DNA of 64,000 nucleotides from Oscillatoria sp. SIO1A7 (GTDB lineage: Bacteria; Cyanobacteriota; Cyanobacteriia; Cyanobacteriales; Laspinemataceae): the NCBI GenBank assembly GCA_010672965.1, contig JAAHFN010000019.1, forward strand, positions 1 to 64,000, read 5' to 3'. A program made the translations under genes and the position numbers. The notes below the pieces were generated by a model. It was given only the letters and a program-made list of their open reading frames with translations. It ran no database searches and was not told where the DNA came from. This document shows positions 198-21,202 of this stretch, piece by piece. How positions within the stretch are numbered: position 1 is the first letter of the stretch; each line of letters starts with the position of its first letter.

Positions 198-3100
198 TCA
201 AGCCATTCCCTGACAAACAAAAGCAGCCCAATACTGCAGGGCAGCAAAGGGAAAAGGTTCGCGGCATTTCGCCTCTAAGCGTTCCTGGACTTTCTCGAAC
301 TTTCTAATCGCCCGGTGCAGGGAATCGCCGACTTTCTTTAACTCCTCGATTTTTTGCTCCCATTCCTCCCGTTCCGAATCCAGGCTTGATTTTTTCAGAA
401 TCTTCTTGGCTTGCCAAAGCTGTTTTTGCACTTCCTTATATTGAGCCTCCAATTCCGGCAGCTTTTCCCGGCAGCTTTCTTCCAACTTGGCTTTCAGCTC
501 CGAGCCATAGTCGCGGGCAAACTCGTCGCCGGTTAATTGGCGCAAGTCCTGCTGGGCGCGCTGCAGGGCGGCAGAACGAGTAAGGTTTTCTCGCCGATAC
601 TTATAATAAAGAAGAGAAAAAACGGCGGCGGCCAAGTCATCTACTGCCCAGAGAGTGCTGACGACGCTGCGAGCCCCAGCGCATAAGAAGCCAGCAGCGA
701 GAGTCAGAATATCGTCGGTAATTGGGGCAAATCCCAAGCCGGTTTCGCAGCAAGAGAGGAAAACTTCTTCTAGTTCCGGGAGGCGCCAGCCCGGGGTCAT
801 CAGTTGTCCCAAAGTTATATCCCCATCGCCTACAATAAGTTTCGATTCCAGAGGATTGTCCCAACGAGATTGGGCGTGGTGGCTGGAATGGAGCGACTGG
901 ACTTGTCGGGCGAGGCGCTGGTAATTGCTAACAGTAGCTTGGCGGCGACCTTGCAAGCGCTGGGATGCGGGAATGTCGTAGAGCCTCGCAATGCGCTCTC
1001 CTTCAAAACGGGCGCAGGGCAGGTCTTCGGTGGCATCTTCCACAGTGCCGTATTTGGACACTATTGCCGGGGGACGGTTCTGGCAAAACTGCAATACTTG
1101 GCAGCTCGGAACCGTGCGAATGCGAAACCTATCTCCCAAGTATTTAGTAGGACTTACGCCAATTGTTTTATGTGCAGGGGCGATTCGCGAATCGCCCCTG
1201 CCAGATAAAGGGCTAATCCCTAAGTCCTGTTTACAATATTTACCGCCGGTCAAGGGCAAAGCAGCAAAAGGAATTTGGTGTAAATAGAGATGCGGCACCA
1301 GGATTAGTTCTTGGATTCCCGCCAAATGTTCCTCTACCAGTTCGTCTAGCTGCAGCCGCTCCGCCAGTTCCGCCAAAACGCTTTCCATCTGACTCTGCCA
1401 TCGGGGGTTGTCTTCAACATATGCTTTTAACCACTGCTTCAAAATCCAATTTTGAAAATCGTAGCCTCGATCGCCGCAGGAGCGAACAGAAACAGAAACC
1501 CGATCTTCCTCGGGCTGGTAACGGAGGATAAAAATATAACTGTCTTTGCTGGTGCTATAGAAACTGAGAATAGCCGTTTCCCTTTCGCCGCCGAGAAGCT
1601 GCTGCAGTTGGCCGAAGTCGAGAGGATTGACCTGAATTTGTCCCGCCAAAACCGGATCTTTGCGGCGCAGTTGCTGCCAAATTTCCTGTTTCTGGGCTTC
1701 TAGCTCTGCCAAGCGCGGGTCGTCGGGAGCGCGACCCACCCGCTCGCGGCGGCGGCTAGTTCCAAATCCAGCCAGTTCTGGACTATTGTCGATTTCATAG
1801 CGGCGGCGTTCTCGGTCAATTTCTTTTTGCAGATTCTGGTATTGGTTCAGATATTCTTCGACTTCTGAGGGAATTTCCCCGCCTCGATAGAGGTCGTTGC
1901 TGGCCATCAAATCTACCAGGCGTTTGGAACGCGATCGCTCCACCGTTTCTAAAGCGCGATCGAGCTGCCCGCTATTAACGCAGGCTTGCACCATTTGTTC
2001 GTAAACGTCAATAGCATCGGCGATAATTTCTTGGCGGCTCGCGTCTGAAGTCGCCCAGTTGCGGCTCTGCTCCACCGCCTTAATGGCAAGACCATAGCCT
2101 TCTATCGCTACCTCCCAATCTCCAGCAGTAAAGCCCAGATTTCCCAGATTCCGTCCGGCTCTGAGACTGTCGAGGGGAAACGCAGCGGGGGAGTGAATTT
2201 CTAAAGCCAATCGAAAACAGCGGATGGCTGCTGGAGTTTTTCCTAGCTCTTTGTAGGCAGAGCCGAGATTGTTTTGGGTCGCAGCCCATTGCTCGGGAAA
2301 GGTCGAGGGAGTCCTAATTTGCAAGGCTCGCTCGTAGCAGGCGATCGCTCGTTCTAAATTATCGCCTCGCTCTCCTTTTATTCGGTAAAGGTAGGCAGAG
2401 CCAAGATTATTTTGGGTCGCAGTCCATTGCTCGGGAAAGGCCGATGGAGTATATACCTGTAAAACTCCCTCGTAGCAGGCGATCGCTTTTTCTAAATTAT
2501 CCCCTCGCTCTCCTTGAATCCGGTCAGAGTAGGCTAATCCCAGATTATTTTGGGTCATAGCCCAATCCTTGGGAAAGGCTGAGGGAGTTCTAATCTGCAA
2601 AGCTACCTCGCAGCAGCGTATAGCCTGCTCCAAGTTATGCCCTCGTTCTCCTGTTCTCCGGTAAAGGTAGGCGTTACCCAGATTATTTTGGGTCGTAGCC
2701 CAATCCTCGGGAAAGGTCGAGGGAGTTCTAATTTGCAAAGCTCGCTCGTAGCAAGCGATCGCTCGTTCTAAATTATCGCCTCGCTCTCCTTTGATCCGGT
2801 TACTGTAGGCATTACCTAGATTATTTTGGGTCGTAGCCCAATCCTCGGGAAAAGCAGAATAAGTTCTAATCTGCAAAGCTCGCTCAAAACAGGCGATCGC
2901 TTCCTCCAAATCTTCCGCTCGCTCTCCTTTGATCCGGTTACTGTAGGCATTACCTAGATTGTTTTGGGTCATAGCCCATTGCTTGGGCAAGAACCAGGGA
3001 GTCAAAACCTGCAAAGCTCGCTCGCAGCAGGCGATCGCTTCTTCTAAGTTATCGGCTCGCTCTCCTTTTATCCGGTCAAGGTAGATAGAGCCGAGATTAT

Positions 3101-4412
3101 TTTGGGTAATAGCCCATTGCTCGGGAAAGGCCGAGTGAGTACATACCTTCTCGTAGCAGGCGATCGCTTTTTCTAAGTTATGTTCTCGCTCTCCTTTTAT
3201 ACGATTGCGGTAGGCAGAGGCCAGATTATTTTGGATCGATGCCCATTGCTTGGGAAAAGCCGAGTGAGTACATACCTGCAAAACCTTCTCGTAGCAGGCG
3301 ATCGCTTCCTCCAAGTTATCTGCTCGCTCTCCTTTTATCCGGTCAAGGTAGGCAGAGGCTAGGTTATTTTGGGTCGATGCCCATTGCTCGGGAAAGGCCA
3401 ACAGAGCAAAAAACTGCGAAGCTCGCTGATAGCAGGCGATCGCTTCCTCCAAGTTATCTGCTCGCTCTCCTTTTATACGATTGCGGTAGGCAGAGGCCAG
3501 ATTATTTTGGGTCGATGCCCATTGCTCGGGAAAAGCGGAGTGAGTACATACCTGCAAAACCTTCTCGTAGCAGGCGATCGCTTCCTCCAAGTTATCTGCT
3601 CGCTCTCCTTTTATGCGGTAAAGGTAGCCAGAGGCTAGATTATATTGGGTCAATGCCCAATCCTTGGGAAAGGCCGAGGGAGTATATACCTGTAAAGCTC
3701 GCTCGTAGCAGGCGATCGCTAGTTCTAAATTATTTGCTCGCTCTCCTTTTATCCGGTCAAGGTAGGCAGAGGCTAGGTTATTTTGGGTCGATGCCCATTG
3801 CTCGGGAAAGGCCAAAAGAGTCAAAATCTGCAAAGCTCGCTGATAGCAGGCGATCGCTTCCTCCAAGTTATCTGCTCGCTCTCCTTTTATGCGGTAAAGG
3901 TAGGCAGAGGCTAGGTTATTTTGGGTCGATGCCCATTGCTCGGGAAAGGCCAACAGAGTAAAAAACTGCGAAGCTCGCTCGTAGCAGGCGATCGCTTCTT
4001 CTAAGTTATGTTCTCGCTCTCCTTTTATACGATTGCGGTAGGCAGAGGCCAGATTATTTTGGGTCGATGCCCATTGCTTGGGAAAAGCCGAGTGAGTACA
4101 TATCTGCAAAACCTTCTCGTAGCAGGCAATAGCGATTTCCATATTATTGGCTTTGCTGCCCAAGGGAAATTGTCCAATCAGATTGCCGAATTCGTTTATA
4201 ACTGCGGCGGTAAATTGTGCTTGCTTCGGTTCTTGCGTTGGCAGGATGGCGGCTACCCAATTATTGAGGACTCGAATTAGGTTTTCGTCTAAAAAATGTT
4301 GGTGCTGCTGCAGGAGCGGATAGATGACTTGCGGATCTCCCTGGCTTTCTGAGATTTTTTTAAATACGGCGAATATGAAGTAGAGATAGGCTTGGTCTCG
4401 TCGGTCGTTCAT
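198..4412 (-). CDS. TPR repeat / CHAT domain protein
   Basis: Residues about 90-720 form roughly fifteen tetratricopeptide-like units of about 42 residues, each with a core such as NLEEAIACYERAL and a spacer FPEQWASTQNNLASAY. The DNA is a near-identical 126-bp tandem repeat. Residues about 980-1400 are a CHAT (caspase HetF-associated with TPR) peptidase-like domain. The candidate catalytic His lies in HSSHHAQ near 1177 and the Cys in FLSCCETG near 1220. CHAT proteins of this build are caspase-like proteases or scaffolds, abundant in filamentous cyanobacteria. Residues about 1060-1090 derive from an inserted inverted-repeat element and interrupt the usual GKYLGDRF segment. The gene stands alone. 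Substrate unknown; whether the insertion spoils the fold cannot be judged from sequence. Confidence 0.9.
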   Translation of the reverse strand: MNDRRDQAYLYFIFAVFKKISESQGDPQVIYPLLQQHQHFLDENLIRVLNNWVAAILPTQEPKQAQFTAAVINEFGNLIGQFPLGSKANNMEIAIACYEKVLQICTHSAFPKQWASTQNNLASAYRNRIKGEREHNLEEAIACYERASQFFTLLAFPEQWASTQNNLASAYLYRIKGERADNLEEAIACYQRALQILTLLAFPEQWASTQNNLASAYLDRIKGERANNLELAIACYERALQVYTPSAFPKDWALTQYNLASGYLYRIKGERADNLEEAIACYEKVLQVCTHSAFPEQWASTQNNLASAYRNRIKGERADNLEEAIACYQRASQFFALLAFPEQWASTQNNLASAYLDRIKGERADNLEEAIACYEKVLQVCTHSAFPKQWASIQNNLASAYRNRIKGEREHNLEKAIACYEKVCTHSAFPEQWAITQNNLGSIYLDRIKGERADNLEEAIACCERALQVLTPWFLPKQWAMTQNNLGNAYSNRIKGERAEDLEEAIACFERALQIRTYSAFPEDWATTQNNLGNAYSNRIKGERGDNLERAIACYERALQIRTPSTFPEDWATTQNNLGNAYLYRRTGERGHNLEQAIRCCEVALQIRTPSAFPKDWAMTQNNLGLAYSDRIQGERGDNLEKAIACYEGVLQVYTPSAFPEQWTATQNNLGSAYLYRIKGERGDNLERAIACYERALQIRTPSTFPEQWAATQNNLGSAYKELGKTPAAIRCFRLALEIHSPAAFPLDSLRAGRNLGNLGFTAGDWEVAIEGYGLAIKAVEQSRNWATSDASRQEIIADAIDVYEQMVQACVNSGQLDRALETVERSRSKRLVDLMASNDLYRGGEIPSEVEEYLNQYQNLQKEIDRERRRYEIDNSPELAGFGTSRRRERVGRAPDDPRLAELEAQKQEIWQQLRRKDPVLAGQIQVNPLDFGQLQQLLGGERETAILSFYSTSKDSYIFILRYQPEEDRVSVSVRSCGDRGYDFQNWILKQWLKAYVEDNPRWQSQMESVLAELAERLQLDELVEEHLAGIQELILVPHLYLHQIPFAALPLTGGKYCKQDLGISPLSGRGDSRIAPAHKTIGVSPTKYLGDRFRIRTVPSCQVLQFCQNRPPAIVSKYGTVEDATEDLPCARFEGERIARLYDIPASQRLQGRRQATVSNYQRLARQVQSLHSSHHAQSRWDNPLESKLIVGDGDITLGQLMTPGWRLPELEEVFLSCCETGLGFAPITDDILTLAAGFLCAGARSVVSTLWAVDDLAAAVFSLLYYKYRRENLTRSAALQRAQQDLRQLTGDEFARDYGSELKAKLEESCREKLPELEAQYKEVQKQLWQAKKILKKSSLDSEREEWEQKIEELKKVGDSLHRAIRKFEKVQERLEAKCREPFPFAALQYWAAFVCQGMA
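1148..1229. mobile_element. MITE-like element inserted inside the CHAT gene
   Basis: An 80-odd-bp element with ends AGGACTTACGC and CTAAGTCCT and a central palindrome of GGGGCGATTCGCGAATCGCCCC lies within the CHAT reading frame. Related elements occur between genes at 4687-4776 and 23634-23731. On the minus strand it is flanked by near-direct copies of TAAATA (TAAATATTG and TAAATACTTG), which suggests target duplication. It adds about 32 codons without a stop. Confidence 0.75.
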
Positions 4413-5189
4413 AGCATAGGACCATCTTCGGTCTTGGATTTTGGATCTGGGAAACTTTCCCGGCGTTGGGGAAACCCCGTTTTCGCCGAGAACTTGAGGA
4501 CTGATTTTTGCCCCTGGGGTTTATAGGGATTTTGGGACAAAAATTATGCAACTATGCGCCGACTGTGGAGACCGGGAGACTTGGGAACAAGGGGACCAGG
4601 GGATAAGGGAACTGGGGGACCGGGAGACATGGGGTAGGTCTTTCACATTTGGTGTTTTTTAGAGAGGCGTTCGGATATTAACCGAATAGGACTTACGCAA
4701 AATATCCAGATATAGTGTTTTGTAGGGGCAATACCCCCGTGGTTGCCCCGTTAGTAGAGTCAATGCGTAAGTCCTACCGAAGTAGGGGCGACAGCATTCC
4801 TGAGACAGTCTTTGCTCATAGCGCAAAATTAATGTATTGGAATGCTTCGCCCTCTTATGCTTGAAAAAAGCGGGACCAGGAGAATTGGGTACTTGGGGAC
4901 CAGGGTAATTGGGGACTTGGGGAAGGGAGCGATCGCTGCCTAGTCTCGGAAAGCTCGAAAAAATTGGTGGACTAGAAACCCGGATTTTTCAAAAACCCGG
5001 GTTTCTGTGCAACTGGTCAATCCGACTTTAGGTTGATTTGACAAAGACTTAAAATGCGATCGCGTTATAGCGGTTCTCAAATTGACTGTTGGCGCAGCCT
5101 GCGCGGAGCTTCTGAGCTGACGGCTAAAAGCTGACTGCTGACTGCTGATAGCTGACTGCTATAATTCATCACTGGAATCTAAAAAAAAG
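4413..5189. repeat. Gap of repeats, hairpins and one MITE-like element
   Basis: No convincing gene. The gap holds GGGGACNNGG-type purine repeats (about 4570-4635 and 4865-4930), an inverted-repeat element at 4687-4776 (ends AGGACTTACGC and GCGTAAGTCCT), a GAAACCCGG/CCGGGTTTC hairpin at 4974-5006, an isolated left end of the TATAGCGGTTCTCAAATTGA element near 5067, and GCTGACTGCTGA repeats at about 5110-5160. Confidence 0.7.
4974..5006. terminator. AGAAACCCGG hairpin
   Basis: Arms AGAAACCCGG (4974-4983) and CCGGGTTTCT (4997-5006) pair perfectly around an AT-rich loop. The same hairpin type occurs twice at 29.4 kb, so it is a mobile or common terminator-like repeat. It follows no gene closely, so its role here is uncertain. 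Confidence 0.5.
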
Positions 5190-5472
5190 CAAGGAGGTCC
5201 GTTGCTCAAAAAGAAAAAGAAATTCTCCCAAGGGAAACCCACCCGCTGCCGCGAGATCCTGCACGATCGGCCGGGTTTTGGGTTGGGCTATCTGAGCAGC
5301 CGGCCTAGCTATTGGAGTAGGCCACTGGACTATTTGCCGATAGTCCAGGGCTTACTCCGTGCCAGTCCGGTTTTTAAGGGAGAAGTTTCTTTTGTTTGAG
5401 TGAGAACACCTCCCTACTAGGTTTCACTTTTCCACTTTGTCAAGGGTCGCGGCTAGCCGTGGCCCCTTTTTT
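5190..5472 (+). ncRNA. Candidate structured non-coding RNA, unknown class
   Basis: The folding evidence is direct. AGGAGGT (5192-5198) can pair with ACCTCC (5408-5413), and CTCAAA (5205-5210) with TTTGAG (5395-5400). GAAATTCTCCC (5219-5229) pairs with GGGAGAA-G-TTTC (5378-5389). Inside are GGCCGG/CCGGCC (5269-5274 with 5300-5305) and a long hairpin in which GGAGTAGGCC (5314-5323) pairs with GGCTTACTCC (5349-5358), capped by CTGGACTAT/ATAGTCCAG (5325-5333 with 5340-5348). A strong intrinsic terminator follows. The 65-codon frame at 5202 needs a TTG only 3 bases after the AGGAGG, so coding is unlikely. It does not match what I know of 6S, tmRNA, SRP or RNase P RNA. An orphan HEARO/omega-type RNA is possible but unproven. 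Confidence 0.6.
5444..5472 (+). terminator. Rho-independent terminator of the candidate RNA
   Basis: GGGTCGCGGC (5444-5453) and GCCGTGGCCC (5456-5465) form a ten-pair stem with two G-T wobbles and a two-base loop, followed by six T residues (5467-5472). It lies about 30 bases after the closing stem of the structured RNA on the same strand. Confidence 0.85.
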
Positions 5473-5948
5473 ATGCCCCTCTACAGGAGCTATGAAACTA
5501 TAGTAGCACGGCTTTGCTCGAACGTCAACACTAAATCCAAAAATTTTTTTGCACTTCTGCACCTGCCGCAAAACCGCCACTTTCGTATAGTCTAATCTTA
5601 CAGCCTCGGTAGCCGTTACTGGATCCTCGCTCAACAGATTGTAGCTCCACCACAAATATTCGCCCCTGCGCCGAATTCTCTCATTCACGCAATTCAAAAT
5701 TCAAAATTCCTTTGGAGCCGAGTCCTGAGTTTAAGGCAAGCGCTCTGGGTCAACGCCCATCTCTAGCAGCAGCGCCTTCATTTTTGCGTTTTGCTCTTCG
5801 GCAGCGATCGCGCGGGCTGCTCCCTATAAATAAGGTGTTTTTGCATTTTGGCGAAGGCATTGTCCAAAAAACCGGGGTTCTTACCCAAGCAACCAAAGCC
5901 AGAAACCAGAGCCCCGGTTTTTCCTGCAAAACCGGGGCTCTTATATTT

Positions 5949-21128: not shown

Positions 21129-21202
21129 GGGCGCGTAACTCAGACGGATAGAGTAGCGGACTTCTAATCCGCTTGTCGCAGGTTCGAGTCCTGCCGCGCC
21201 CG
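21129..21202 (+). tRNA. tRNA-Arg (anticodon TCT)
   Basis: The acceptor arm GGGCGCG (21129-21135) pairs with CGCGCCC (21195-21201). The anticodon arm GCGGA-CTTCTAA-TCCGC gives TCT, and the GGTTCGAGTCC T-arm is present. CCA is not encoded. Confidence 0.95.

Follow-up and report, generated by a model that had tools for sequence, protein, structure and literature searches.

About 120 diverged and dispersed copies of one structured element are present in the genome of Oscillatoria sp. SIO1A7, and these almost certainly represent a real, conserved RNA gene family. The copies retain a compensated fold, as shown computationally, and carry between this fold and a terminator hairpin a short linker which very probably diverges faster than neutral sequence. 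Both strands of the element are likely to be transcribed, the economical reading of the opposed promoters from which this is predicted. One copy occupies positions 5190-5472 of the window, i.e., the entire 64,000-nucleotide stretch analyzed. The first-pass annotation had described it as a stand-alone, orphan RNA, a description that gave way once 120 matches scoring 62 bits or more were found within its own genome.

The 283-nt window element folds at -121.3 kcal/mol, compared with a mean of -91.6 (sd 5.15) for 200 shuffled versions, none of which was as low (z -5.76). In the predicted fold, the nested complementary segments noted earlier close the structure (GGAGGU pairing with ACCUCC), its arms are long, and a terminator hairpin of nine pairs is followed by six T residues at 5467-5472. 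Both the folded RNA and its strong plus-strand terminator were borne out. Conserved sequence extends ~200 nt 3' past the terminator and contains a predicted opposing promoter. The parts of the window copy are listed below.

5157-5165, plus strand: predicted extended -10 box TGCTATAAT, from sequence; start expected near 5172
5189-5198, plus strand: 5' strand of closing helix P0, GCAAGGAGGT; complements 8 of the 10 bases of 5408-5417
5222-5384, plus strand: structured core, with helix P1 (5223-5229 with 5378-5384) enclosing two arms; R2 match of 161.1 bits
5408-5417, plus strand: 3' strand of closing helix P0, ACCTCCCTAC; ACCTCC ranks with the most highly conserved blocks
5426-5440, plus strand: hypervariable linker ACTTTTCCACTTTGT, U-rich on this strand, defined by column entropies and lying between highly conserved blocks
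5444-5472, plus strand: terminator hairpin HP1 (5444-5465) and T run (5467-5472), from plus-strand folding preference and G.U wobbles
5500-5528, minus strand: predicted promoter, with -35 box TTGACG (5528-5523), 17-nt spacer and extended -10 box TGCTACTAT (5508-5500); start expected near 5493
5473-5665, no strand assigned: downstream block, from conservation, with an AT-rich tract beside the minus-strand -35 box, then partly repeated TTCTGCACT units and GTATAGCCTAATNTTACAG

The TTCTGCACT units are direct repeats of ~9 bp that lie upstream of the minus-strand promoter in the family consensus (window 5550-5600 and equivalents), and they possibly form a regulator array. A possible small minus-strand protein encoded by the downstream block looked conserved in a few copies but was rejected, because by inspection stops or frameshifts interrupt most of the 35 translations obtained from 41 copies.

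A covariance search against Rfam, as the first-pass annotation had recommended, identified no known family. At the gathering thresholds the whole window gave three tRNAs only and no family over the element, and around the element a threshold of E 10 gave 14 matches, the best at E 0.088 and none near the cut-off of its own family. Nine further loci of the family gave 28 matches up to E 1 (best E 5e-7). All were sub-gathering matches to families of miRNAs or UTRs, and the strongest was located ~1.1 kb away from the element. The earlier impression that the RNA differs from 6S, SRP, RNase P and tmRNA is supported, Rfam having given the window element no match near the cut-off of any catalogued family. 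The window element is supported as a structured RNA of no catalogued class.

Among the ORFs of at least 150 aa in positions 1-27000 of the window, all 16 lie on the minus strand, once those overlapped by longer ones are dropped; plus-strand ORFs do exist inside longer minus-strand ones (e.g., 3239-3961, 240 aa). The nearest plus-strand feature found 3' of the element is a tRNA at 21129-21202, ~15.7 kb away. The element had been said to precede no plus-strand gene for 20 kb; no protein gene is in fact nearby, and the distance is slightly too long because of this tRNA. The conclusion that it does not serve as riboswitch of a neighbor is supported by the same observations.

A blast search of the genome gave 44 matches to the element. 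The covariance model R2, built from 41 copies, gave 124 at E 1e-3 or better, of which two are opposite-strand shadows, one is weak (28.8 bits) and one is truncated where its contig stops (37.6 bits); the other 120 are those that reach at least 62 bits. In the regions extracted from the genome 122 copies (108 + 14) were found again, and the 117 with readable linker and terminator were retained, five lacking one of these being dropped. Truncated copies are present in the family, and C96 carries five tandem copies, ~300-500 nt apart. Several contigs begin or end at RNA copies (L089:41, L092:41, L159:1 and L161:6084), and the true copy number may therefore be higher.

The consensus order on the plus strand starts with a promoter-like box (TATAAT or TAGAAT), followed by the 5' strand of P0, GCAAGGAGGT, and the core, closed by P1 and bearing two arms. 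On the 3' side of the core come the other strand of P0, ACCTCCTTGC, the hypervariable linker, HP1 (often with a T run) and the conserved downstream block, which contains the opposing promoter. Where P0 matches in at least 9 of 10 positions (45 copies), its 5' strand lies 89-525 nt from the core in 40 copies and 23-37 nt from it in the remaining five. By inspection, many copies (e.g., L022, L031 and L034) contain G-rich and then C-rich low-complexity repeats of copy-variable length between P0 and P1, which could form a long hairpin.

As far as searched, the family is restricted to one lineage. Leaving aside the own genome, R2 detected no relative in the remaining 98 of 99 related genomes or, at E 0.01, in the remaining 387 of 388 members of the class (both under stricter filters), nor, at E 0.01 under laxer filters, in the remaining 13 of 14 members of the taxonomic family; these sets overlap and contain no second genome of the same genus, and weak homologues could be missed. 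Two weak matches in members of the taxonomic family (E 0.196 and 0.924) resemble protein-coding repeat DNA and were discarded. Blast searches with the window copy gave no match in plasmids or phages; among 59 relatives, two genomes gave matches, which spanned just 25-28 bases. Exact motifs were absent from a viral contig collection, and a genome contig collection contained no relative, although, like the plasmid and phage collections, these may omit records of the own genome. Twelve loci of the genome contig collection that fitted the motif pattern were unrelated on inspection, and R2 gives them at most 20.6 bits. Seven of these (L163, L164, L165, L167, L170, L172 and L173) are Corynebacterium palindromes; Corynebacterium genomes contain repeated nested palindromes around AACCCACCC...GGGTGGG, which constitute a separate multi-copy hairpin.

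A covariation test had originally been proposed on cyanobacterial homologues. Compensatory changes were indeed found, among paralogues, since other genomes provided no homologue. Alignment A2, which holds 107 copies and was fitted to R2, has 85.0% of its cells paired and double changes in 32 of its 47 pairs; the 229 double-change cells compare with 84.2 +- 6.8 after shuffling (0 of 500 as high), which does not keep the relatedness of the copies, and with at most 56 when the structure was slid. A plain MAFFT alignment, not fitted to the structure, contained 153 such cells against 89.1 +- 8.3 (0 of 200 as high) and at most 104 in slid versions. HP1, likewise unfitted, has 10 double-change cells of its own, where shuffling gave 2.0 +- 1.3 and in none of 500 trials as many. 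Support from the earlier 41-row alignment A1 with its manual structure was weak: its 35 double-change cells were equalled or exceeded in 11 of 500 shuffles (25.6 +- 4.1), and two slid versions reached 38 and 35.

HP1 folds better on the plus strand in 116 of 116 copies (-15.7 versus -9.3 kcal/mol), and its wobbles number 207 G.U versus 6 A.C; HP1 therefore fits the plus strand. A run of at least four T follows it in 81 of the 117 copies only. The strand of the core, judged by wobbles and energy, is undecided and leans toward minus. Its wobbles favor A.C over G.U (361 versus 210), yet 23 pair columns lean plus and 21 lean minus; single energies are nearly equal (-73.5 on the plus and -74.6 on the minus strand, p 0.08), and the consensus energy favors the minus strand (-93.1 versus -82.7).

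On the minus strand, the combination of TTG at -35 and TG before the -10 box occurred in 112 of 117 copies. Among the controls it was seen in 4 of 115 stretches taken 400-530 nt further on and, for the opposite strand, in 2 of 117. The minus-strand promoter score exceeded all 20 shuffles in 81 of 117 copies (controls, 6 of 115 and 0 of 117); a score above 5 is unspecific, as 84% of shuffles pass it, and the controlled box count was used instead. In all but one of the 117 copies, the -10 box has its end at a distance of 51-66 nt from HP1, and the promoter boxes coincide with conservation peaks, adjoined by the AT-rich tract. The plus-strand promoter is the weaker prediction. P0 matches in at least 9 of 10 positions in 45 of 114 copies and in at most 7 in another 45, in which the plus-strand promoter is therefore doubtful. 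In 42 of the 45 copies with the better P0, a TANRAT box lies within ~50 nt upstream of it, and the promoter score of these 45 averages 6.3, versus 3.2 after shuffling (one shuffle each).

In 98 of the 111 copies parsed, CCTC and HP1 are 34-37 nt apart, and within this near-fixed interval the sequence of the linker varies almost freely. Its 15 columns have entropies of 1.39-1.92 bits over 117 copies, where 1.76 is expected from composition alone (51% T and 11% A on the plus strand, ~51% A on the minus strand). Among 40 pairs of copies with core identity of at least 95%, identity amounted to 7001/7253 in the core (96.5%), 885/941 in HP1 and 6090/6779 downstream, and to 334/600 in the ungapped linker (55.7%). 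In 12 of these pairs homology continues into an outside flank of at least 30 nt, where 1561/1690 positions agree, versus 108/180 in the ungapped linker; with gaps allowed, the linkers of these pairs differ by 74 edits over 325 nt, compared with 43% for random pairs. The 12 pairs share members and are not independent, and Fisher p values thus overstate the evidence. In the clearest pair (L034 and L035), the flank agrees at 166 of 167 positions and the ungapped linker at 3 of 15, with 10 edits in 27 nt. Edits range from 1 to 11 across the 12 pairs, and three pairs have just 1-3, so that the acceleration is real but uneven.

The linker is also comparatively open (0.535 on the plus and 0.645 on the minus strand, versus 0.364 and 0.384 for the rest of the RNA and ~0.47 for random linkers). 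Most of this openness derives from composition, since shuffled linkers come close (0.526 and 0.608). Sharing of linkers between distant copies, as by conversion, was rejected: dissimilar pairs agree at ~5.4 of 15 positions on average, versus 5.1 by composition, and five dissimilar pairs reach 12 of 15.

By analogy with known antisense systems, we tentatively favor, at less than even confidence, a self-specific sense-antisense control in which pairing through the linker would be specific to each copy. Each locus would yield a sense RNA that terminates at HP1 and, overlapping it, an antisense RNA that initiates ~50 nt past the HP1 start and is transcribed back across HP1 and the linker. Because much of both RNAs is tightly folded, pairing would begin at the linker, U-rich in the sense and A-rich in the antisense RNA. 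In this the family would differ from RNAI and RNAII of ColE1, whose recognition uses loops; here the linker is the putative pairing site. Since both strands share one DNA, the linker would be free to change and yet remain self-complementary, and its divergence would be driven by selection against cross-talk among the ~120 paralogues. The outcome would be private antisense control per locus, in the way antisense RNAs set plasmid incompatibility. Such a reading suggests itself because it joins the opposed promoters, the strong folding of both strands, the open complementary stretch and its fast change in the face of few clear outside targets. Pairing between the constant regions of paralogues could weaken the copy specificity. 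In wider terms, the family might be a dispersed repertoire of ~120 RNA genes, with a constant compensated scaffold and a private, diversifying tag of ~15 nt read from both strands, operating as an RNA-only system of self-recognition or guidance; this is possible, if doubtful. No nuclease, diversifying reverse transcriptase or protein partner has come to light for the RNA family.

The sense-antisense proposal is modeled on RNAI and RNAII of ColE1, overlapping opposed RNAs of one locus, as predicted here, whose interaction decides plasmid coexistence (PMC9458437). ColE1 differs in that its RNAs control plasmid replication from one locus per plasmid, whereas the present copies are ~120 in number, dispersed and associated with no known replicon. 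In Campylobacter jejuni, the structured small RNA CJnc190 is antagonized by CJnc180 from the opposite strand of the same locus, an arrangement like the one predicted here; that pair has a known mRNA target, and the accessible portion of the report describes neither a multi-copy family nor a hypervariable stretch (PMC8687705). No report of such an RNA family was found in the open-licence PubMed Central literature, within the portions of text it made available. The parts are of known kinds; we know of no other case in which ~120 copies combine a constant scaffold with a private diversifying tag. If the copies are transcribed, this is to our knowledge one of the largest paralogous RNA gene families in a bacterium, and it would provide a natural set of ~120 possibly orthogonal RNA pairs. 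The family would allow a test of diversifying selection on RNA-RNA recognition inside one genome.

Alternatively, the copies may act in trans as small RNAs, the constant fold being a handle for a shared protein and the U-rich variable stretch a seed with different targets in each copy. The linker is indeed seed-like, being variable, of near-fixed length and placed before an intrinsic terminator, and the ~120 dispersed copies bear plus-strand terminator hairpins. Matches to the linkers in their own flanks nevertheless stayed close to chance; of twelve comparisons, a single one was raised (15 versus 9.1 matches, on the same strand 1.8-5 kb upstream, with tandem copies unmasked). In 1.35 Mb (~15% of the genome), linker matches of 12-13 nt were near chance and none of 16 nt occurred; a small excess was confined to complements of 14 nt (7 versus 3.8-6.9 expected) and 15 nt (3 places versus 0.65-0.9, all from one linker). 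A scarcity of outside targets is expected if the partner of each RNA is its own antisense, and action in trans alone leaves the conserved opposing promoter unexplained. We consider it unlikely.

Similarly improbable is an arrangement in which the minus-strand RNA is the main product and HP1 is a plus-strand terminator shielding its promoter from incoming transcription. This would account for the near-constant minus-strand boxes, for a plus-strand 5' end that is often not found and for the lean of core wobbles and consensus energy toward minus, and it agrees with the neighboring genes, as the nearest upstream ORFs of at least 200 aa point at the element in 76 cases versus 34. The wobble lean is uneven among the pair columns, however, and the 3' end of a minus-strand RNA would need P0 plus a U run as terminator, whereas P0 was not found in many copies. 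Convergent settings around the copies outnumber divergent ones (37 versus 12).

A spreading repeat, non-autonomous and mobile or selfish, whose fold serves its own spread and whose linker is mutation-prone and functionless, is rather unlikely. The dispersal of ~120 copies in one genome, the truncated copies and the contig ends at copies would fit such an origin, as would the location of related copies mostly in unrelated flanks. Against it, fixed ends of the kind seen in MITEs were absent: homology stopped at varying places in 26 pairs, with no common ends (boundaries were judged by inspection, also for target-site duplications). Diverged copies, moreover, keep compensated pairs and opposing promoter boxes, as under selection per copy, and the linker changes faster than flanks copied alongside it. 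In some pairs the homology ends beside another repeat, GGATTTGATAT / ATCAAATCCG, at duplication breakpoints (e.g., L044, L053 and L103).

Diversity-generating retroelements produce targeted local hypervariability in genomes of multicellular bacteria, a feature shared by the linker, and have protein-coding targets and a dedicated reverse transcriptase, unlike the family here (PMC10907252). That the linkers are targets of such an element is very improbable: the ~51% A of their minus strand is reminiscent of adenine mutagenesis, but the genome has only six reverse-transcriptase (RVT_1) matches, and the two proteins scanned, neither of them recognized as the retroelement type, best matched a group II intron maturase model, below its cut-off. 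One RNA copy is adjoined by a two-frame reverse transcriptase with an HNH-like end (L105:4240-5935), which is nearest to group II maturases.

The omega RNAs of IscB (HEARO) and TnpB are likewise large structured RNAs with a variable part, and the first-pass annotation had suggested a guide RNA of this type from the large, multi-branched fold; this can practically be dismissed, given no IscB above the model cut-off, two TnpB-type (OrfB_IS605) matches in the genome versus ~120 copies, no Rfam HEARO match (at gathering over the window, up to E 10 around the window copy and up to E 1 in nine further loci) and a variable stretch that is internal, between helix and terminator, rather than at the end of the element. 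The seven sub-threshold IscB matches cover model positions 176-248 of 314 only, presumably the HNH part.

No common neighbor stood out among ORFs of at least 110 aa within 5.5 kb of the copies. The largest cluster of neighboring ORFs (98 members at 65 loci) suggested a link to TPR-CHAT proteins, one of which neighbors the window copy; it was judged to reflect single-linkage chaining over repeat domains and was rejected. The next-largest clusters span 13 and 8 loci. The 78 CHAT matches in the genome are not enriched near the copies: the observed and expected numbers are 5 and 5.8 within 3 kb, 12 and 9.4 within 5 kb, and 17 and 14.5 within 8 kb. The window itself encodes a TPR-CHAT protein of 1404 aa on the minus strand (198-4412). 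It also contains 103 HIP1 octamers, where ~1 would be expected from equal base use; an abundance of HIP1 octamers is a cyanobacterial trait.
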